From: Asterias amurensis
Lineage: Eukaryota; Echinodermata; Asteroidea; Forcipulatida; Asteriidae
Direction: 5' to 3'
NCBI RefSeq assembly: GCF_032118995.1
Contig: NC_092651.1
Span: 23,110,349-23,174,348, forward strand
DNA: 64,000 nucleotides
Shown here: positions 6,046 through 40,505 of the stretch, piece by piece
How the letters are laid out: each line of letters starts with the position of its first letter
How positions within the stretch are numbered: the first letter of the stretch is position 1
Program-made: the position numbers and the translations under genes
Notes under the pieces: generated by a model
The model's database searches: none
What the model was told of the DNA's origin: nothing
Seen by the model: only the letters and a program-made list of their open reading frames with translations

Positions 6046-6347
6046 CAAGCGCTTAGGCTCCGCCCACTTGCCCCGATCGCCCAGCCACACAGCAAACACA
6101 TGCAAACACATGGACTTCACTAAACAGTCACATGTTCGTCACATGCATTTCCGCTACACTATTATAAATCAACAATGAATAACCACTAAATATTACAATG
6201 TCCCTAAATAGATGGAAAATGTCAACCCACATAGTTGCAATAAAAGAGTTCTTTTGTCTCGGCAGTTCAACAGTGAAAATTCTAACTGTACGTCTTAGCA
6301 GATTGACAGCTCAAGTCAGATTGCAGCTATTTGCCACAAGACCAAAT

Positions 6348-10009: not shown

Positions 10010-11130
10010 GATTGAGAGTTTGTGAACAAACTCAAGGTGTTCGGTTTCCGGGAGTAAAAGCCTGGATTAAAAAAAACAAATAATATTACACCTTGCTTTG
10101 TTCTCAAGATTTGTAATAAATGATTCAAATTACAAAAACTGTCAAAACCACGTGATTACGTCATCTAGTAAAAGTGTATGTTTGGTGACGTCATCGGTAA
10201 TATTTAAACCAGACCTTTGCCAGACTTGTATGGTGTGATGGTAAAGCATCAAAGGATGTTTATTTCGACATAAAAGACAATAAACCACGTCCTTTCAAAT
10301 CATTTCACAGTCACTTCCCGTTTAAACAGGTCAAAAGGTCAACGAAAGTTCACCAACATATTCATTTCTGTCAAGTACGTAAAGCCCTTTCATATGTTGA
10401 CAGATTGTCAAAATAGCTTATGTAGTTTAGGAAATATGAACTTAGGAAATATTGACTGACGACTGAAGAAAAGACTGTAAGGGGCATGTATGTTTTAACT
10501 GCCTTGAACGAAGACTATTCTTCATGAAGCTTTTTCGCGCTCTATTGATAATATTTCTAAAAAGAATTAAAAAAAAACACGTGGATTAAAAATAATGATT
10601 TTTTGAAATAATAATTTGAATTTTTATTACTCAAGAATGGATGACGTCATCATGACCTAACTAACACATTATTCCACTCCTAATGCATATCTAACTATGT
10701 GCGAAGTTTCAAGTTCATACGAGTTTGGGAAGTGTGCTTTTGTTCGAGGACTAGGGACGAAGAGAAGAAGAAGATGAAAATCTGGATTGTTTTATTGATT
10801 TGTTTGTACTAAAGTTTTGTTTAATCCGGCAGTTTATTTTAGCAAGACCACTCCTAATTGCTTGGGCCTTATGCTTTAACCATTCTGTTTTCTTTGAATG
10901 TTTTGTATTGTAACATCCATGTCTGTGCATGGAGGTAGAAATAGATTAGTTTACGTAACGTCCTTTCCTACTAGAGAAAGTTTGAAAGGGCTTATGTTAT
11001 TTCAGAGATTTTTTTTCTTCAAAATATTTAACTCAAAATAACTTGGATAGTTGTTTTAACAAATAATCAAAACAATTGATGATTATGCTAAGTTCAAGAA
11101 GTAATAGATATCGTAATACTGACGTGAATT
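10010..11130 (+). repeat. Composite dispersed repeat R1, unoccupied copy
   Basis: Recognisable blocks in order: AAGGTGTTCGGTTTCCGGGAG; ACTTCCCGTTTAAACAGGTC with CAAAAGGTCAACG; TGATTTTTTGAAATAATAA; a TGACGTCATCATGAC box; AAGTTTCAAGTTCATACGAG; a GAAGAGAAGAAGAAGATG purine run; then CAGTTTATTTTAGCAAGACC and TTTCTTTGAATGTTTTGTATTG. The same order recurs at 16.6-17.58 kb, where the DIRS element interrupts it, and continues at 23,669. Partial copies lie at 11.37-11.57, 14.55-15.0 and 16.29-16.55 kb. No coding capacity and no clear termini, so its class is unknown. Confidence 0.75.
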
Positions 11131-16289: not shown

Positions 16290-17584
16290 CTTTTGAACCG
16301 TAAGACAAGGTCAAAATGGGATTATGTCTGCGAGGCGTTTACGGAGTTTCGAATGATGATTCCGATGATGTATTGATTATAAGAATCCCCTGTGTAGATC
16401 AGAAGTAATGATTTTATATTAATAAACAACTTTGAATGACCGTCATTCAAGAACGGTTGACGTCATCATGACGTAACTTAAACGGTTTCCTCTCCTTATG
16501 AATATCTAACTTTGTGTGAAGTTTCAAGTTCATACGAGTTTGGAAAAGGTGTTTTTGTTAGCGGACAAGGTATTTTTGAGTTGGCCGAACAAACGTAAAA
16601 ATACACTAGACTCAAGTTTTTGTCATAACAAAAACAAGGTGTTCAGCTTCCGGGAGTACAAAAATACACCCTGGTGGACAATTATCAAAGGAAAAACCCA
16701 TGAAAATAGGCCTTTTCAAAGCATTTTACATGCACTTCCGGTTTAGAAAGGTCAAAAGGTCAAGAGAAGGTCACCAACATATCCATTTTTGTGAAGTACG
16801 TAAACCCCTTTCATATGATGTATAGATTGTCAAAATAGCTTTTGTGGTTGAGGACATAGGAACTTATGAATGATGACGACTGGAGAAGAGACTAACTAAA
16901 CGAAAGGGAAATGTTTATTGAAAACGCCTTGAAAACAGACTATAAACGAAGCTGATATAATATTTTAAAAAAGAAGTAAAAAAACAAACAAAAAAAACAA
17001 AAACAAACAAACAACAACATCAACAACTGGTTTAGCAGGTTTCCCATCAACGTACTGACCGGGCCCGATGTTGCTTAACTTCACTGATCGGACGAGAACC
17101 GGTGTGATCAACGCAGTACGGTAGTAGTCAAAACAAAAAATGTATTTTTGACGAAAATACACAAAAAATCTGATTTGAACCAGAAGACAAGGTAAAAATG
17201 GGGTCATGTCTGCGAGGCCTTTACGGAGTTTTTAACGACCTTTCCGATTATGTATCGATTGTAAGAATCCATCACGTGGATCAAAAATAATGATTTTTTG
17301 AAATAATAAACTTTGAATTTTTAAAACTCAAGAATGGATGCCGTCATCATGACCTAACTAACACATTATTCCACTCCTAATGCATATCTAACTATGTGCG
17401 AAGTTTCAAGTTCATACGAGTTTGGGAAGTGTGCTTTTGTTCGAGGACAAGGGACGAAGAGAAGAAGAAGATGAAAATCTGGATTGTTTTATTTATTTGT
17501 TTGTACTAAAGTTTTCTTTAATCCGGCAGTTTATTTTAGCAAGACCACTCCTAATTGCTTGGGCCCCATACTTTAACCATTCTG
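16290..17584 (+). repeat. Repeat R1, copy interrupted by the DIRS element
   Basis: Shows the same block order as 10,010-10,887: the CGGGAGTACAAAAATAC region, GGTTTAGAAAGGTCAAAAGG, the CGTCATCATGACC box, the GAGAAGAAGAAGATG purine run, then AAGACCACTCCTAATTGC and AACCATTCTG (ending 17,584). The next base belongs to the DIRS element and R1 resumes at 23,669. A 5S-derived SINE sits inside at 17.0-17.14 kb and is missing from the 10-kb copy. Confidence 0.78.
17025..17138 (-). repeat. 5S rRNA-derived SINE or 5S pseudogene
   Basis: The minus strand reads like the first 90 or so nucleotides of 5S rRNA: GACTACTACCGTACTGCG, then CACCGGTTCTCGTCCGATCA, GAAGTTAAGCAACATCGGGC and CAGTACGTTGATGGG. The internal pol III promoter (box A AGTTAAGCAA, intermediate element, box C GTTGATGGG) is visible. 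After the 5S part comes a T/G-rich run (TTGTTGTTGTTTGTTTG) to about 16,975, i.e. a retroposon-style tail. A 5S head with a simple tail matches SINE3-type elements or a 5S retropseudogene. It is absent from the R1 copy at 10 kb, so it is an insertion. Confidence 0.8.
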
Positions 17585-17598
17585 GTCTACTTCACTCT

Positions 17599-17742
17599 AC
17601 TTACCGGTAGAGTCGAATTACTAATTTGCATATTCCCCTATGCCGCGAGGCAGAATGCTAAGACTTTTACACACAATAGCGCCCTCCACCGTCCTACCCA
17701 TAACGCCCCGCGACATGCCCGTCACGGAGTCGTCCTCTTTTC
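17599..17742 (+). repeat. DIRS left inverted terminal repeat core
   Basis: ACTTACCGGTAGAGTCG ... GGAGTCGTCCTCTTTT. It reappears inverted at 23,485-23,628. An extra 14 bp (17,585-17,598) is unique to this extremity and is represented only in the internal complementary region. Confidence 0.9.
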
Positions 17743-17915
17743 TCTTAGCCGCGAGTGGGTGAGGTTGTGTTTTAAATCTGTTCCACAGTTCAACCGTTAT
17801 AACTAAACCTTTCCTCGCTAAGAGTGCTTATAAAGACTTGATAATTGTAGAGTTGTAGTTGTTGTTGTTGTAGTGAGTTGTGAAATAAACTATAGTTTGA
17901 TTTCGTTGATAAATA

Positions 17916-20126
17916 ATGAGTAGTGTTAAGAAACTGGGGAGGGCTTCGGCTGTCGCTACTGGGGTTACGTCCGTTTCCCCGGGACAGTCCGAGCTCTCGG
18001 GGGGCTGCACCGGCGACACTCCGTCGCCCGGCTTGCAGCCCTCCAGCCGGCCCACGCAGCCTCTGTCGGCTACGTCGGCCGGATTACCCACCGATCAAAG
18101 AGGGGTTGCTTCCCGCTCCCCCTCTTCGGTCAGTGTGCGTGGGTCGACCCAGTCGAAGGTCAAACGCCCCGGCAAGGCCAAGAAGAACGGTGCCGGGGCA
18201 GCGACCAAGAGAGGCAGGGCAAAAGGTGGCTCCGTTCCGAAGCGCACCGCCCACTCTCCCAGCACCGCCTCGGGGTCTCTGCAGCCGGAGGGCATCCCCC
18301 CTCCGCACGGCTCAGAATACCCGGCCCGCACCGACACCGTGGATTCCCCCACGACGGTTGGTGACGGCCTTTTGCGAGGTTTTAAGACCCACAAGGCACC
18401 TGCCCACGCCATAGGCTGTGGGGCGCTGGCCATGGGGAGAAGGATTATGGGTGCGGAGTCGGGTACCTGGGACTCCCCCGGGATACCCCACTCACAGGGC
18501 CCGCCCTCGTCTTCGGGTTTCACCCGTTGTTCGGGCATCCCTGTCACTCAAGTTTCCTCAGAGAGAGCCTCGGATTCGTCCCGTGAGCGGGTACCGAATA
18601 AGCGGCAGAGGTCCAGAAAAGACCGTCATCTTCGGTCGTCTGACGACTCCTCTCCTGACGGCCATAGGAAACATCATCGGGGTAGCGAGCCGCTCTCCCG
18701 AGACGAATTCCTCACGGCTTTCCAAACCTTAGCGGCCTCAATATCCGGCCGGCGCGAGGTTCAGGAATTTTCCCAATTTTCGGGACCGTACACCCAGCCC
18801 GACCAATCCGGTCATGGCTGGGTGCGCCAGGATCGAGGCGGCGTGCCGTGCACGGTCAGCCGGCCACCGGCCTCCCCTCCCAGTCACCGTCCCACGGTCA
18901 CCACACAGGAGGTTGCATGGGGTGTGATGGAACAGGGTGATGTGCGGTCACGCACGGGTGCACGTCCACAGTCCCAGACGGGGATTAGCATACACCCCTC
19001 TGGATCCTTTGTATCCGATCGGGATGCAGAACACCATGATTTGTTAGACACAGCCCTGCCTTTGGGTCAACAATCAGTGAGTGTATCCGACCCCCCCGGG
19101 TCCGGCGGCTCGTCCCCGGAAGAGGACGAGTTGACCACGGCAGTTCAACGGCTTTTGATTGCCGAAACTGAATTGCGCCTTGTCCAAAGGGACATGGCCC
19201 GGGTGTTAGGTCTCCCCGCCGAGGAAGCGGGGGACGCCCCCGAGGAACGACGGTCTTTTAAGAGAAGGACTGGCCCCGCTCCGAGGAGTGGGAATGTTTT
19301 CCCGGCGATGCCGCTAGACCGGGTATGCGCTGACCGCATCGAAGGCATCATGTCGGCATCCTCTTGGACGGCCTACCCCAAGCGGGCGGATTTATATTAC
19401 CGATTTCCCCCCGGGGATTTCGATAAATATTTCTCGACCCCAGTCCTGCCGGACTCGGCGGCAGACAAGCTGACCGCAGACAGGGGGGCAACCTCTTCTA
19501 AACTTCCCTTCGCCGACAAGGCGCGGGGGAAGTTGGAAGAAGCAGCCAGGAAGATAGACTCAGCATCACGCTTTGGCATGCGAACGTCGTCTTTTTTGCT
19601 CCTTCTGTCCGAGTACCTCACGCTTGCCGGCGACGAGGACTCGGCAATCCCAGCGGACATGATGGTGGCGGCCCTCCACTGCCTGGATAATGGCCTGCGC
19701 ACGGTCCTAGACCAGTTTACGAGGGTTTCAACCCTAGCAACATCTGCACGTAGGGCAAACGTCCTAGACGCTCTGTTCCTCCCGTCCGTCGGGGCTCGCA
19801 AACGACTTGATGCGCTCCCCCTAACGGGACGAGACCTGTTTGCAGGGAAATTCCAGGAGTCCATGGAGGCCGAAGCCAGACGCCTCAAGGCCACGGATAA
19901 AATCAACTTAAGGAAGCCGCGGACCTCTGTACCGGCGGCAAGGAAGGGCAAACAAGCCTCCTTTGTGATTCCATGTAGGCGCCCACAGAGACCCGCCCGT
20001 GGCGGTTTTCGTGGGAACCAAGGACCACCGAACGCACGCACGCCGGCCCAAGGTCAACAGCGGGCCCAGCCGGGCCGTGGTTTTCGTGCGTCCGCCCCCC
20101 GGTATCCCGGGGCGTGGCGGAAGTGA
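17916..20126 (+). CDS. DIRS ORF1, Gag-like
   Basis: An open frame of 736 codons at the position of the DIRS first ORF. The amino-terminal half is Ser/Pro/Arg-rich and low in complexity. A more ordered part follows from about residue 470 (after the region with P-L-D-R-V). The carboxy end is basic and Arg/Gly-rich (R-G-G-F-R-G-N, then P-G-R-G-F-R), suiting nucleic-acid binding. The start is the first ATG about 330 bp inside the element. Its role as the element's structural protein is inferred from position, not from a recognised domain. Confidence 0.7.
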   Translation: MSSVKKLGRASAVATGVTSVSPGQSELSGGCTGDTPSPGLQPSSRPTQPLSATSAGLPTDQRGVASRSPSSVSVRGSTQSKVKRPGKAKKNGAGAATKRGRAKGGSVPKRTAHSPSTASGSLQPEGIPPPHGSEYPARTDTVDSPTTVGDGLLRGFKTHKAPAHAIGCGALAMGRRIMGAESGTWDSPGIPHSQGPPSSSGFTRCSGIPVTQVSSERASDSSRERVPNKRQRSRKDRHLRSSDDSSPDGHRKHHRGSEPLSRDEFLTAFQTLAASISGRREVQEFSQFSGPYTQPDQSGHGWVRQDRGGVPCTVSRPPASPPSHRPTVTTQEVAWGVMEQGDVRSRTGARPQSQTGISIHPSGSFVSDRDAEHHDLLDTALPLGQQSVSVSDPPGSGGSSPEEDELTTAVQRLLIAETELRLVQRDMARVLGLPAEEAGDAPEERRSFKRRTGPAPRSGNVFPAMPLDRVCADRIEGIMSASSWTAYPKRADLYYRFPPGDFDKYFSTPVLPDSAADKLTADRGATSSKLPFADKARGKLEEAARKIDSASRFGMRTSSFLLLLSEYLTLAGDEDSAIPADMMVAALHCLDNGLRTVLDQFTRVSTLATSARRANVLDALFLPSVGARKRLDALPLTGRDLFAGKFQESMEAEARRLKATDKINLRKPRTSVPAARKGKQASFVIPCRRPQRPARGGFRGNQGPPNARTPAQGQQRAQPGRGFRASAPRYPGAWRK

Positions 20127-20249
20127 CCTCCCGGTCTCCAGGCGACCTCCCGCCGACGGACCCGTGGGAGGCCGCCTTCAGGAATTTTTGGGGTCCTGGG
20201 CTCAGATCACGTCCGACAGATGGGTCCTCGAGACGATCGAGTACGGCTA

Positions 20250-21130
20250 CGCACTCGAGTTCACGAGGACCCCCCCGTTGGACATGCTGGTTCGGCCAAC
20301 GCCCACCCCGTCCAACCCTCTCAAGCGCCGTGCCCTCGAAGGGGAGATCAGTTCCCTTCTCCTCAAGCGGGCAATACGCGTTGTCCCCGACCAGGGGACA
20401 CGGACGGGGTTCATGTCCACTTTCTTCTTAGTTCCCAAGAAGGAGGCGGACGCTTGGCGGCCGATCCTGAATTTAAAGCCCCTAAACCGATTTATCCGCC
20501 CAAAGCGCTTCCGCATGGAAACGCTGCGGGCAATCCTCGAATCAATCGAAACGCCCGCATGGGGGGCGAGCTTGGACCTTCGGGACGCTTACCTCCATGT
20601 CCCCGTCAGGGCCGAACACCGCAAATTCCTGCGCTTCCTCTACAACGGAACGCTATACGAATTTGGGGTGCTCCCCTTTGGGCTGTCGACCTCCCCTCGG
20701 GTTTTCACCCGAGTGGTACGGGCGATCGGGGCAGCACTTCGGAGACGAGGACTGCTGATTTTTCAATACCTCGACGATTGGCTGATTGTGGGCCGATCGC
20801 GGGAGGCAACGGACGCGGCGCTTACACTTACTTGGCGCCTCACGTCCAGCCTGGGGTTTCTCATCAACTCCGAGAAATCGCACCCGATCCCCTCTCAGGT
20901 GCCCACCTTTCTCGGTGCGGCTCTCGACTTTCAGAGGGGGCTAGCCCGCCCTTCGGCGGAACGGGTACAGAACTTACAGCAGTGCGTGGCCCTTTTCCTG
21001 GGGGCTACGGTGGCGCCAGCGGTAGCCTGGCTCAAGTTACTTGGTCTTATGGCCAGCATGGTAGACCTAGTAGATTTCTGCAGGCTGAGGATGAGACCTA
21101 TCCAGCTCCATCTCCCTCCTACTTTCGGCC
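20250..21130 (+). mobile_element. DIRS reverse transcriptase domain
   Basis: Contains the RT blocks F-L-V-P-K-K, W-R-P-I-L-N-L, S-L-D-L-R-D-A-Y, L-P-F-G-L-S-T-S-P-R-V-F and Y-L-D-D-W. These are typical of the DIRS branch of LTR-related reverse transcriptases. It copies element RNA into DNA. Boundaries are approximate domain limits. Confidence 0.92.
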
Positions 21131-21199
21131 CAGCCGTCATTCGGTCAACCTCCCGGTGCCTACCACGCCGTGGCTGACCCCCCACCTTCAATGGTGGGT

Positions 21200-21640
21200 G
21201 GAGGACGCCAACCTTACACGTGGTCGGGTGTTCCGCCCGCCCCGACCATCAGCGACCGTCGTCACCGACGCGTCTCTGTACGGCTGGGGGGCGACCCTCG
21301 ACCCCTGCCAGATAGCGGGGGTGTGGGGCCCGGAACACCACTCGACCCACATCAATGTCCTGGAAATGCTGGCGGTCCGGAATGCCCTCCAGCATTTCCG
21401 GGCAAAGCTAGTGGGGCAGGCCGTCCTGGTGCGCTCCGACAACGCTACAGTGGTAGCGTATATCAATCACCAGGGGGGCACCCGGTCGGCCCGGCTGTGT
21501 GCACTGGCGTGGGACCTGATCCACTGGTGCATACAGCAGGGGATCGCCCTGTCGGCGGTGTACATCTCGGGGAAGGAGAATGTCACGGCCGACGCTCTTT
21601 CCCGGGGCTGGATCGTCCCGACAGAATGGTCCCTCCGCCC
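21200..21640 (+). mobile_element. DIRS RNase H domain
   Basis: Contains the RNase H signatures V-T-D-A-S, H-I-N-V-L-E-M-L-A, R-S-D-N-A-T-V and N-V-T-A-D-A-L-S-R. It degrades the RNA strand of RNA-DNA hybrids and lies directly after RT as in all DIRS elements. Confidence 0.9.
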
Positions 21641-22079
21641 CTGTGTGGCCCAGTCGCTCTTCCTGCTTATCGACCAACCTCATGTGGATCTGTTCGCCTC
21701 TCGGATGAACAATCAACTGCCGATCTACTGCGCCAGGGGCCCCGACCCGGGGCATGGCGGATCGACGCTCTGACTATACGATGGGAGGGGCTGTTGGCAT
21801 ACGCCTACCCGCCCATCTCCCTCATTTCACGGGTGCTGACAAGGATCGAGCAGGATCACTGCAAAGTTCTCCTGATCGCCCCTTTTTGGCCCCGACAGCC
21901 CTGGTTCCCACGGCTGGTCAGGCTCCTGGTACACAGGCCGGTAGTTCTCCCACAGCGCCCGGACCTCATATACCAGCCCGGGTCCAGAGTAGTGCATCCG
22001 ACTCCGAGGGACCTGCACCTGACGTGCTGGGTGCTGTCACAAGACCCCTCAGAGCAGCGGGCCTTTCGAGACGGGCTGC

Positions 22080-23080
22080 GGAAGTTGCCGCCCAGTCCCG
22101 AAGGGCCTCAACCCGAAGAGTTTATGACTGCCGACTACGCCATTTCTTTAAATGGTGTAGGCGGCGAGCTATTCATCCCGCCGATACTTCTGTAGAGGAA
22201 GTCGGGGATTTCCTCCTATATCTTTTTGATAGCGGGCTGGCAACGGCCACGGTGAAAAATTACCGTTCGGCCATTGCTGCAGTCCACGGAGGATTCACCG
22301 ACGGCTCGACAGTCTCAGATAACCAGGCGATTGGACAGCTGACTAAGGGGATGTTTGTCACCCGTCCCCCGGTGCGCAAACTGGTCCCATCGTGGGACCT
22401 CTTTAGCGTGCTGTCAGCACTAAGAAAACCCCCTTTCGAGCCACTGAGTGGGGCCACGCTACTACATCTAACGATCAAAGTGGCCTTTTTGTTAGCGGTC
22501 GCTACGTCTCGCCGACGTAGCGAGCTGCACTCCCTTACGGTGGCGGCGGGGCACATCCGGTGGGAACCCGGAGGTGTCCGCCTGGTCCCTGCGGCGGGGT
22601 TTTTAGCCAAAAATCAATCCAGTGCTTTCGAACCCCCGGATATTTTTGTTCCCGACCTTAAAACCTTTTCGGCGGTCGCGGGAGACAAGCTTTGGTGCCC
22701 GGTACGGGCCCTAAAGTGGTACATCGATCGCACAAAGTCAATCCGAACCGGCCACGAACAGCTGTTCGTGTCCACGGTTCCACCATTCCGACCAGCGTCC
22801 CGCGATACAATCGCGCGTTGGATAGTCACAGCCATCCGCTCGGTGCCGGGCGGATGGCCAGCGTCCGATGGTCCAGTTCATGCCCACGAAGTATGGGGGG
22901 TGTCGGCCTCATGGGCTTTCTTTAAAGGGGTCTCCATGAGTGATATTACAGGGGCGGCCTCCTGGAAGAGCCCGTCCACGTTCTCTGACTGCTACCTGAA
23001 GGACGTTCTACAGGTGGATGGGAGAGCGGGTAGAGCGGTTTTACAGGCGGCCAGCCGAGCTGCAAAGCCAGGACAAGCTC
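22080..23080 (+). mobile_element. DIRS tyrosine recombinase domain
   Basis: Amino-terminal core-binding part (about 22,080-22,330, with Y-L-F-D-S-G-L-A and K-N-Y-R-S-A-I) and a catalytic part (22,470-23,060) with the T-S-R-R-R-S-E-L box and the H-E-V / I-T-G-A-A-S-W region. It integrates the circular cDNA by site-specific-type recombination, which explains the lack of a target-site duplication. Confidence 0.88.
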
Positions 23081-23320
23081 CACCTCGGCAGTCACGTGTT
23101 TAGGTGAGTTCTTCCACGGTAATACAGTGCTAACAATACTTATAATGTTTTGTTCACCCGTGGGACGATACCCCCTGTACGTTTTGGGCATGGACCACTA
23201 TCGGGCCTAGCGGCCGCGAAGCGTTCTCTGAATTTTGAGCGCGCCGGGGTCCTACGCCCCCCCCACTTAAGACATGCAGTAGCACCGCGTATACCCACCG
23301 CCTTTCCTCGGTGCGAGTCT

Positions 23321-23423
23321 ATGCAAATTAGTAATTCGACTCTACCGGTAAGTAGAGTGAAGTAGACTCCCCCCCCCACAGTAGTGTGGATGGGGTCTAC
23401 GAACGAATACTTACCGGTAGAGT
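23321..23423. repeat. DIRS internal complementary region
   Basis: 23,321-23,367 is the exact complement of the left end (17,585-17,631). 23,368-23,423 is the exact complement of the right end (23,613-23,668). The two join base to base, so the segment is a mirror of the circle junction the element would form. It is the proposed template for restoring the outer ends in the DIRS cycle. Confidence 0.92.
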
Positions 23424-23484
23424 ATCCCTCCCTCCTTCCCCACATACTCGGTCCTTGGGTGCTTACATTTAGTAGGGCTCATCG

Positions 23485-23668
23485 AAAAGAGGACGACTCC
23501 GTGACGGGCATGTCGCGGGGCGTTATGGGTAGGACGGTGGAGGGCGCTATTGTGTGTAAAAGTCTTAGCATTCTGCCTCGCGGCATAGGGGAATATGCAA
23601 ATTAGTAATTCGACTCTACCGGTAAGTATTCGTTCGTAGACCCCATCCACACTACTGTGGGGGGGGGA
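23485..23668 (-). repeat. DIRS right inverted terminal repeat
   Basis: The core 23,485-23,628 is inverted relative to the left repeat. The outer 40 bp (GTATTCGTTCGTAGACCCC to the final G-run and A) is specific to this end. Confidence 0.9.
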
Positions 23669-23870
23669 TTTTCTTTGAATGTTTTGTATTGTAACATCCA
23701 TGTCTGTGCATGGAGGTAGAAATAGATTAGTTTACGTAACGTCCTTTCCTACTAGAGAAAGTTTAAAAGGGCTTATGTTATTCCAGAGATTTTTTTTCTT
23801 CAAACTATTTAACTCAGAATAACTTGGATAGTTGTTTTAACAAATAATCAAAACAATTGATGATTATGCT
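23669..23870 (+). repeat. Repeat R1, right half after the DIRS element
   Basis: TTTTCTTTGAATGTTTTG onward matches 10,888-11,092 closely to AATTGATGATTATGCT, then diverges abruptly at 23,871. Confidence 0.85.
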
Positions 23871-27426: not shown

Positions 27427-28577
27427 AATAACTGCATGATCGTACAAATATTTGAGTATAAAGTAACCATTGTAGGCTTTCATATTATGGGCAATACTGA
27501 TACTATTTTTAGTATACGGAGATTGAAACAACCAATCACAGAATTCTACAGCACACCCCTCTTCGGTTCCCTGGTCCTAGTAAAGACCGTCTTGACTGAA
27601 TTCCTCTTGACTGAGTATTGCGTTCTGTCCTGTGTGATTTTCTTGATAGTTAGGTTCTGGTAGATCATTTTGTCCGGGTAAAGTTGTTTCCTCCACACAA
27701 ACAAGTTGATACAGTCTTTCATTTAAGTTTTCGGTCTCCTCCGAAGAGAGACACCAGTATTCAAGAAATTACCATTTAACTTTCCCGTTGTCAAAGCATT
27801 GTCAAGGGATATATTCTGTGAGATTGTAAGGTCATGAAGGTATTTAAACCCAAGGTTGGTTCCAACCCCTGCCCTCTGAGATTCCAATACATCCAAATAT
27901 CTCTGTTTGGTTATTTCATTTGTACATTGGTTGAGTCCTTTGCAGCTAGATTTGTCTTTCTCACCAAAACTGAAGTAGGTTTTACTACACAGTGCTACAA
28001 TTCCGTCACCCTCCCATTCTACCTTAAAAAGTCCTGGGGTTCTCTTGTCAAATGCATGATGTTGAGGGTTGTCTTCTCTCCAACACCATTTGGGTTTGTT
28101 AAGGATATATTCCGTTTTTCTTTCTGGTTTGATCATATCATCTAAGTGTCCTTTACATCTCGCACCTGAAAGTCAGACGGATGGATGTATTTGGTCAAAA
28201 AGTCAAAATAAAATTCTAACATTCTCATATTGGCGTGCAAAGAAACCTATTTTGAATGGTGAGGTTTAGATTCAGTTTAGTTTAGTGATCTGAAGCTCAT
28301 TCATAAATTCCTCAATGACATGTAAAGCTCGAAAGTGGGAGTCATTGATACACTGCAAGGCGTCTGAATCGCTGCATACTTTAACTTGCCTGCATTTCTT
28401 GATTGGTTACGGATTTACCATAAGCGGAGTTTCCGTGGAGTTTCATAGTATCTGCCAAAATGGGGCTTGATGTGTCTCTATCTTTTGGTACAACCTTTAT
28501 AAAACACTCATGATCAAAGGACACCATCTCTTTACATAGATTACAATAATCCTTGGTACAATCGTGTTTTCCAAACT
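27427..28577 (-). repeat. 1.15-kb segment shared with 1-1152
   Basis: Base-by-base reading shows only scattered differences from the window's first 1,152 bases, in the same orientation. Both ends of the identity are abrupt on the right (…CCAAACT). Confidence 0.88.
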
Positions 28578-38753: not shown

Positions 38754-40505
38754 TCCCATCCAAAACATTGCATCACGAAAGTTGTTTCTGTAGTACTTCC
38801 TACATGCCTTAGCGGCATTCTTCATTAAAGTGACTTGCGCAGCAATGGACAATTGTCTTTGTTAAATCAGTATCCTTCGCTGACCCATTTACGATTCTGT
38901 TCCCATCCAAAACATTGCATCACGAAAGTTGTTTCTGTAGTACTTCCTACATGCCTTAGCGGCATTCTTCATAAAGTGACTTGCGCAGCAATGGACTATT
39001 GTCTTTGTTAAATCAGTATCCTTCGCTGACCTATTTACGTTTCTGTTCCCATCCAAAACATTGCATCACGAAAGTTGTTTCTGTAGTACTTCCTACATGC
39101 CTTAGCGGCATTCTTCATAAAGTGACTTATGCAGCAATGGACAATTGTCTTTGTTAAATCAGTATCCTTCGCTGACTCATTTACGATTCTGTTCCCATCC
39201 AAAACATTGCATCACGAAAGTTGTTTCTGTAGTACTTCCTACATGCCTTAGCGGCATTCTTCATAAAGTGACTTGCGCAGCAATGGACAATTGTCTTTGT
39301 TAAATCAGTATCCTTCGCTGACCCATTTACGATTCTGTTCCCATCCAAAACATTGCATCACGAAAGTTGTTTCTGTAGTGCTTCCTACATGCCTTAGCGG
39401 CATTCTTCATAAAGTGACTTGCGCAGCAATGGACAATTGTCTTTGTTAAATCAGTATCCTTCGCTGACCCATTTACGATTCTGTTCCCATCCAAAACATT
39501 GCATCACGAAAGTTGTTTCTGTAGTACTTCCTACATGCCTTAGCGGCATTCTTCATAAAGTGACTTGCGCAGCAATGGACAATTGTCTTTGTTAAATCAG
39601 TATCCTTCGCTGACCCATTTACGATTCTGTTCCCATCCAAAACATTGCATCACGAAAGTTGTTTCTGTAGTACTTCCTACATGCCTTAGCGGCATTCTTC
39701 ATAAAGTGACTTGCGCAGCAATGGACAATTGTCTTTGTTAAGTCAGTATCCTTCGCTGACCCATTTACGATTCTGTTCCAATCCAAAACATTGCATCACG
39801 AAAGTTGTTTCTGTAGTACTTCCTACATGCCTTAGCGGCATTCTTCATAAAGTGACTTGCGCAGCAATGGACAATTGTCTTTGTTAAATCAGTATCCTTC
39901 GCTGACCCATTTACGATTCTGTTCCCATCCAAAACATTGCATCACGAAAGTTGTTTCTGTAGTGCTTCCTACATGCCTTAGCGGCATTCTTCATAAAGTG
40001 ACTTGCGCAGCAATGGACAATTGTCTTTGTTAAATCAGTATCCTTCGCTGACCCATTTTCGATTTTGTTCCCATCCAAAACATTGCATCACGAAAGTTGT
40101 TTCTGTAGTACTTCCTACATGCCTTAGCGGCATTCTTCATAAAGTGACTGGCGCAGCAATGGACAATTGTCTTTGTTAAATCAGTATCCTTCGCTGACCC
40201 ATTTACGATTCTGTTCCCATCCAAAACATTGCATCACGAAAGTTGTTTCTGTAGTACTTCCTACATGCCTTAGCGGCATTCTTCATAAAGTGACTGGCGC
40301 AGCAATGGACAATTGTCTTTGTTAAATCAGTATCCTTCGCTGACCCATTTACGATTCTGTTCCATCCAAAACATTGCATCACGAAAGTTGTTTCTGTAGT
40401 ACTTCCTACATGCCTTAGCGGCATTCTTCATAAAGTGACTTGCGCAGCAATGGACAATTGTCTTTGTTAAATCAGTATCCTTCGCTGACCCATTTACGAT
40501 TCTGT
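38754..40505 (-). repeat. 146-bp satellite array, 12 units, exon-derived
   Basis: The first 147-bp spacing is followed by strict 146-bp spacing (unit starts 38,754, 38,901, 39,047, 39,193, 39,339 and so on). Units differ at only a few positions. On the minus strand each unit encodes T-D-L-T-K-T-I-V-H-C-C-A-S-H-F-M-K-N followed by C-R-K-Y-Y-R-N-N-F-R-D-A-M-F-W-M. 146 is not a multiple of three, so the array cannot be one long protein. The segment entering the first minus-strand unit has an acceptor-like CATCGCTGTTACAG (ending 40,506). The last unit runs into new coding-like sequence (38,750 downward). The protein text looks like the middle of a transposase-type gene. Confidence 0.9.

Follow-up and report, generated by a model that had tools for sequence, protein, structure and literature searches.

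The element analysed here lies in a stretch of 64,000 nucleotides from the starfish Asterias amurensis (contig NC_092651.1, positions 23,110,349 to 23,174,348), hereafter called the window, which corresponds to C4:23110349-23174348 in the genome of 491.5 Mb and 23 contigs that we searched. A DIRS1-like tyrosine-recombinase retrotransposon of 6,084 bp spans window positions 17585-23668, with ends exact to one base, and interrupts a host repeat, R1, of which an empty paralogous copy is present in the same window. The features, in window coordinates, are the following (ORF, open reading frame).

10578..11089, plus strand: empty paralogous copy of R1, with the junction at 10887^10888
17273..17584, plus strand: left portion of R1, the host repeat that the element interrupts
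17585..23668, plus strand: DIRS1-like element, 6084 bp, supported alike by its ends, by the internal complement and by the empty site, and with sister copies
17585..17597, plus strand: left terminus beyond the perfect inverted repeat, beginning with the circle trinucleotide GTC
17598..17742, plus strand: left inverted terminal repeat, 145 bp, 100% identical to the right one
17916..20126, plus strand: gag-like ORF, 736 amino acids, no Pfam match
19999..21177, plus strand: pol, reverse transcriptase part (PF00078, 3.7e-20)
20220..21773, plus strand: RNase H portion of pol, read in a different frame (PF17917, 6e-5, narrowly short of the cut-off)
21170..22195, plus strand: pol C-terminal part, in a third frame, at the position of the DIRS methyltransferase domain, no Pfam match
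21754..23103, plus strand: tyrosine recombinase ORF, 449 amino acids, with the Arg of HxxR changed to Trp
23320..23423, minus strand: internal complementary region, the complement of the right end (23368-23423) fused to that of the left end (23320-23367)
between 23367 and 23368: circle junction inside the internal complementary region
23484..23628, minus strand: right inverted terminal repeat, 145 bp
23629..23668, plus strand: right extension, the last bases being nine G and then A
23669..23671, plus strand: target trinucleotide TTT (NTT in 34/39 parsed right ends)
23669..23870, plus strand: right portion of R1, the host repeat that the element interrupts

In the self-comparison, the right end (23613-23668) is the complement of 23368-23423 at 56 of 56 positions (E value 7e-24) and the left end (17585-17632) that of 23320-23367 at 48 of 48 (E value 1.5e-19), which rules out chance complementarity between the ends and the internal region. 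The two halves of the internal complementary region adjoin with zero gap and zero overlap, giving 104 bp in total, and the inverted terminal repeats (17598-17742 and 23484-23628) are identical over 145/145 bp. When the flanks are joined across the element, they align to 10578-11089 through CATTCTG followed directly by TTTTCTTTG, the junction being free of indels; the boundary against the empty R1 copy is fixed, as it cannot slide by even one base. Relative to the empty site (10887^10888), the insertion neither added nor lost host bases. The left and right R1 flanks are 96.2% and 98.0% identical to the empty paralogue, and R1 itself is part of a repeat of ~2.4 kb. The published convention counts the 3-bp target trinucleotide as the element end, and under it the annotation would reach 23671. 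A sequence-only reading of the locus had proposed a DIRS architecture in which the ends, the inverted repeats, an internal mirror and a pre-insertion R1 site at the CATTCTG junction agree. All four hold, with complementarity at 23,321-23,423 of 100% over both halves; only the start of the internal region had to be moved, from 23321 to 23320. The element is a well-defined member of the DIRS1-like group.

The reverse transcriptase and RNase H are of the Ty3 type (PF00078, 3.7e-20), with 4ol8 (reverse transcriptase/RNase H) and 7q5b (Ty3 Gag-Pol) as the best PDB matches. For the recombinase of the window copy, a SAM-like domain scored 3.4e-5, below the cut-off, and the phrog_1 integrase 1.3e-4; the recombinase of the sister copy L013 matched the phrog_1 integrase at 9.1e-9 and PF00589 at 0.003, below the cut-off, and the HxxR and Y motifs were identified by eye. 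Structure prediction of the recombinase (331 amino acids, 4 rows) gave no usable fold, with a predicted local distance difference test (pLDDT) score of 34.5. A search for the recombinase among viral contigs and a tblastn search of the reverse transcriptase against phages returned no match. Searching the genome with the element DNA yielded 44 matches from the best 40 of 328 candidates; among the sister copies fetched, 20/20 match from query base 1 and 18/20 reach query base 6080-6084, the two that stop short in that comparison being L027 and L028.

Insertions of this family, family A, choose R^NTT, where R is a purine and ^ the insertion point. The base at -1 is A or G at 39/44 left ends (p = 7e-8 against 0.5), and the trinucleotide that follows the terminal G-run and A is NTT at 34/39 right ends (p = 1e-30; TTT in 22, ATT in 9, GTT in 3), with T at +2 in 36/39; an AA dinucleotide occupies -10/-9 in 22/44 left ends (p = 3e-12), where the p values for NTT and AA assume a background of 60% A+T and all three are uncorrected for the choice of positions after inspection. 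The 44 left ends remain from 51 rows classed as ends after removal of five duplicates, L046 (a recombinant terminus) and L084 (a near-copy of an array flank). The 49 such rows for right ends, less the duplicated loci L017 and L022 and the misfiled internal complementary regions L038+ and L039+, leave 45, of which six could not be parsed (L030, L033, L036, L064, L070 and L074); in 5 of the 39 used, the tail was taken as AGA rather than A, and L026 was parsed by hand. These statistics rule out sequence-neutral insertion. Duplication-free integration, as claimed from the sequence, stands in that no bases were added or lost at R1, but it is not indifferent to sequence, and "no target duplication" becomes a measurable target, namely R^NTT plus a stretch rich in A that lies one turn of the helix upstream.

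The internal complementary region gives the circle junction as A^GTC (in the context ...GGGA^GTC...), so that the circle trinucleotide differs from that of the target, GTC against TTT in the window copy. In the published model, recombination takes place with an identical 3-bp sequence and without target duplication (PMC3266345). Here, GTC is found in 0/39 parsed right ends and in 0/45 right ends overall, and all 30 parsed non-redundant two-ended copies carry GTC on the left and the different trinucleotide of the target on the right. These 30 derive from 35 rows, less L017 and L022, and less L033, L036 and L064 with unparsed right ends; the left end of L033 reads GTG. The ends of 13 of the 33 two-ended copies, with L037, were joined by position from two fetched stretches, and the left end of L028 was taken separately; L037 additionally contains the left end a second time, inverted. 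The set of left ends, part of 172 places, is biased towards GTC because it was limited to places with at most one mismatch, and the unbiased checks are the right ends and an exact genome search over 26 bases for the opposite left end, which gave a single hit, in a decayed internal junction and not at an end. A two-strand exchange at a mismatched trinucleotide with free segregation should make both product types common. Such strict polarity would not be expected of a two-strand heteroduplex that can resolve either way, and it is in keeping with integration that uses a single strand or is biased towards one. The element itself is of a known kind, and the mismatched circle trinucleotide together with the strict polarity is the interesting part; in the literature on DIRS and recombination, the full texts of which were covered by term search only, we found no title or abstract opening on this polarity.

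Three further families from the same genome, B, C and D, have a DIRS reverse transcriptase related to that of family A at 62, 42 and 38% on the amino acid level, and in each the internal region is the right end fused to the left end, as in family A, with no added bases seen. Family B has the circle trinucleotide GTC and the junction hairpin in common with family A. Its two two-ended copies read GTC on the left and GTT or TTT on the right, and a third right end reads ATG (the stretch fetched for its left side missed the end). At C10:7.75 Mb, one family B copy has inserted into a satellite of ~100 bp, and the adjacent satellite units serve as the empty site; the insertion is duplication-free and of the same polarity, so a target-site duplication is absent both there and at the R1 empty site. 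Families C and D differ in having the circle trinucleotide ATT and right ends ATT in 5/5 and 5/5 (one more stretch fetched for family C missed the end), and the polarity is unreadable in them because circle and right ends are both ATT.

Folding of the single-stranded circle junction gave -11.2 kcal/mol for family A (z score -3.9, 0/200 shuffles), with the crossover beside an unpaired A, -10.9 kcal/mol for family B (z score -6.0, 0/200) and -4.9 kcal/mol for family C (z score -4.1, 1/200), and no junction hairpin was found for family D (z score 0.4, 120/200). Between families A and B the outermost pair of the hairpin changes from G-C to A-T with both sides altered (GTAGAC/GTCTAC versus ATAGAC/GTCTAT). 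A single compensatory pair between two related families suggests a hairpin but does not prove one, and the same dyad could simply represent recombinase binding sites.

As a whole, the locus is very probably best explained by a DIRS1-like retrotransposon with a target preference for R^NTT and a fixed polarity, the window copy being a young and now defective product. Following the published DIRS model, RNA without parts of its termini would be reverse transcribed, the internal complementary region would act as template or splint to rebuild the ends and join them into a circle, and the tyrosine recombinase would recombine the circle junction ...GGGA^GTC... with genomic R^NTT, no host base being added or deleted. 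Since the mismatched trinucleotide goes to the same side every time, we propose in addition that one defined strand exchange, rather than a freely segregating two-strand heteroduplex, would yield the inherited product.

Several observations weigh against this account. The lengths of the terminal G-run and the internal C-run are uncorrelated (Spearman -0.02), where a simple template-copy model predicts a correlation; among 36 copies the internal run is longer in 18, equal in 8 and shorter in 10. The right end is closer to the internal complementary region of its own copy than expected from permutation (mean of 2.86 differences versus 3.58, 0/5000), which shared subfamily history would give likewise, and the left end shows no own-pairing signal in the permutation test. 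A methyltransferase domain has no Pfam match in the window pieces or in the intact pol of a sister copy, and a single-sequence structure prediction of the pol C terminus (217 amino acids, pLDDT 33.3), the motifs of which we take to resemble those of a methyltransferase, did not confirm such a fold.

The same element may instead have inserted by an ordinary two-strand crossover, with the polarity due either to a bias in the mismatch repair of the heteroduplex or to a crossover point that is effectively blunt, and we consider this rather probable. The target weakly matches the circle, with a purine at -1 in 39/44 and T at +2 in 36/39, as if limited homology were needed, and families C and D use an identical ATT; however, repair would have to be complete in all 30 parsed two-ended copies as well as in 2/2 two-ended copies of family B, and known tyrosine recombinases make a staggered cut.

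Integration of DIRS elements through the exchange of only one DNA strand is a live hypothesis and not a result, and we put it forward only tentatively, as the less likely outcome. The cDNA would be folded, with its ends paired to the internal complementary region or with the junction hairpin formed, it would then be joined to R^NTT, and replication would complete the insertion, with the circle trinucleotide always on the same side. Integron cassettes (attC) are an analogue of mechanism alone, with no homology claimed: there, a tyrosine recombinase acts on a folded single strand and the polarity of the product is fixed. If single-strand integration is true, the side that matches the circle in elements with unequal termini should be the side opposite the extension. 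Table 3 of PMC3266345 contains 28 DIRS1-like elements, 10 of them with unequal start and end, and we did not treat an identical circle and target trinucleotide as defining the group. On our re-reading of that table, 8 of the unequal elements are decidable. Seven of them (AcDIRS1, AcDIRS2, AmDIRS2, BmDIRS1, NveDIRS6b, TnDIRS1a and XtDIRS2) have a start that equals the circle-junction complement, and each of the seven bears a right extension, accompanied in AmDIRS2 by a left one; in the eighth, AcasDIRS1, which has a left extension only, it is the end that matches the circle. AmDIRS1 and BfDIRS2 fall outside the eight. How tyrosine-recombinase retrotransposons integrate is known largely in the form of a model. 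Where a starfish genome offers many young copies, together with empty sites in repeats and a crossover trinucleotide that does not match, the strand side can be read for each insertion, and strict polarity can discriminate between integration models.

The window copy itself differs from the nearest of 12 aligned sisters by 0.38% (L009) and 0.41% (L013), with a range up to 1.68%, and carries nine private substitutions, eight of them C>T or G>A. These substitutions and the perfect inverted repeats agree with a recent arrival whose decay has begun. Because pol is split across three frames and the Arg of the recombinase HxxR motif, present in 16/16 other copies where the motif was found, is replaced by Trp, the copy would not be expected to be autonomous, as judged from its sequence. 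In L009, L010, L012, L013, L016, L017 and L024 (L016 and L017 being one duplicated locus), the pol motifs searched all lie in one frame of 688-781 codons. Sequencing errors in an intact copy are an improbable source of the frame breaks and of the change from Arg to Trp: single-base length errors do happen even in HiFi assemblies, but two frame changes plus one substitution would be needed, and the predominance of C>T or G>A among the private substitutions fits real decay. The sequence-only reading had described a clean natural case and a recent arrival, and had proposed an assembly search for other copies. The search found sisters at 0.38-1.68% among the 12 aligned, recency is borne out, and "clean" is appropriate for the structure but not for the genes.

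Assignment to another class of tyrosine-recombinase retrotransposon, PAT-like or Ngaro, is very improbable. The enzyme set would be the same and a methyltransferase profile match is absent, but PAT (PMC3266345) and Ngaro (PMC9210276) elements are described as carrying split direct repeats, whereas the inverted terminal repeats and the fused internal complement found here refute the assignment, and the sole direct repeat listed in the self-comparison is a 35-bp match of inverted-repeat sequence common to the internal region. Compared by published description, the element resembles the hemichordate SkoDIRS1 and SkoDIRS2, among the hemichordate and echinoderm DIRS1-like elements that also include Strongylocentrotus DIRS (PMC3266345): they measure 6052 and 6283 bp, with conserved inverted repeats of 202 and 142 bp, right extensions of 30 and 27 bp and an internal region made up of two stretches of 63-67 bp. 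The start GTC sets our element apart, being found in 0/28 elements of Table 3 in that source. With DIRS-1 of Dictyostelium discoideum it shares inverted repeats, an internal complementary region, a recombinase and a proposed circular intermediate (PMC5633606), as well as clustering in limited chromosome regions; it differs in host, in trinucleotide (TTA for DIRS-1 in Table 3, PMC3266345) and in the extended target preference.

There is hardly any chance that the empty site is a deletion derivative and the repeats an assembly artefact: a single paralogue would by itself be weak evidence, but 40/40 scored R1 matches genome-wide (the best 40 of 263 first-look candidates, one being the window's own copy at 10788-10987) run contiguously over the insertion point for the full 200 bp at ~100%, with no extra junction bases, the flanks differ among 20 other full copies except for the duplicated pairs L016/L017 and L021/L022 and the shared-repeat pair L012/L013, and the published assembly was built on PacBio HiFi reads (PMC10625585).

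Several other observations concern the distribution of these elements. L012 and L013 occupy the same insertion point in a repeat of ~393 bp, a target hot spot, in copies 87% alike in direct and 96% in inverted orientation. L066 (C5:15909900-15910430) is a miniature of ~380 bp, a non-autonomous derivative that has the two family A ends and whose right junction, A^TTT, is normal, and the left end of L046 (C19:305380-305860) starts within the right end's own GTCTAC. Family-A-like left ends lie on one strand at C2:21.76-22.77 Mb and C6:19.586-19.612 Mb (L075, L076 and L077, with L084 on C3); their spacing is in places ~6.0-6.6 kb and three were read with the same flank, indicating tandem arrays that contain a DIRS end. 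The DIRS reverse transcriptase matches are clustered: among the matches listed, the densest 1-Mb interval of each chromosome takes up 67/118, where a random distribution would give 33, with neighbours merged and three single-match chromosomes excluded. Examples are C1:7.3-8.1, C5:13.2-14.2, C7:5.4-6.0, C9:15.1-16.0 and C11:22.0-22.2 Mb, and C4 and C10 show no cluster among these matches. By analogy with DIRS-1 in Dictyostelium, the clusters may possibly mark pericentromeres. The genome paper reports 416 DIRS fragments, 0.04% of the genome (PMC10625585).

The window also contains a 146-bp tandem repeat at 38754-40505, with units ~98% alike, and a direct repeat of 1.15 kb (1-1151 and 27427-28577) that is 98.4% identical. 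In COX1 on the 16.4-kb contig C23, 8/8 AAA codons in the stretch read align to Asn of a solved COX1 chain (for example 5j4z), and 16 ATA codons align mostly to Ile or other aliphatic residues, as in the echinoderm code. Two nuclear COX1 copies, at C5:658874-660214 and C5:675294-676634, with 12 TGA codons each, probably represent a transfer of mitochondrial DNA into the nuclear genome, or a misassembly.

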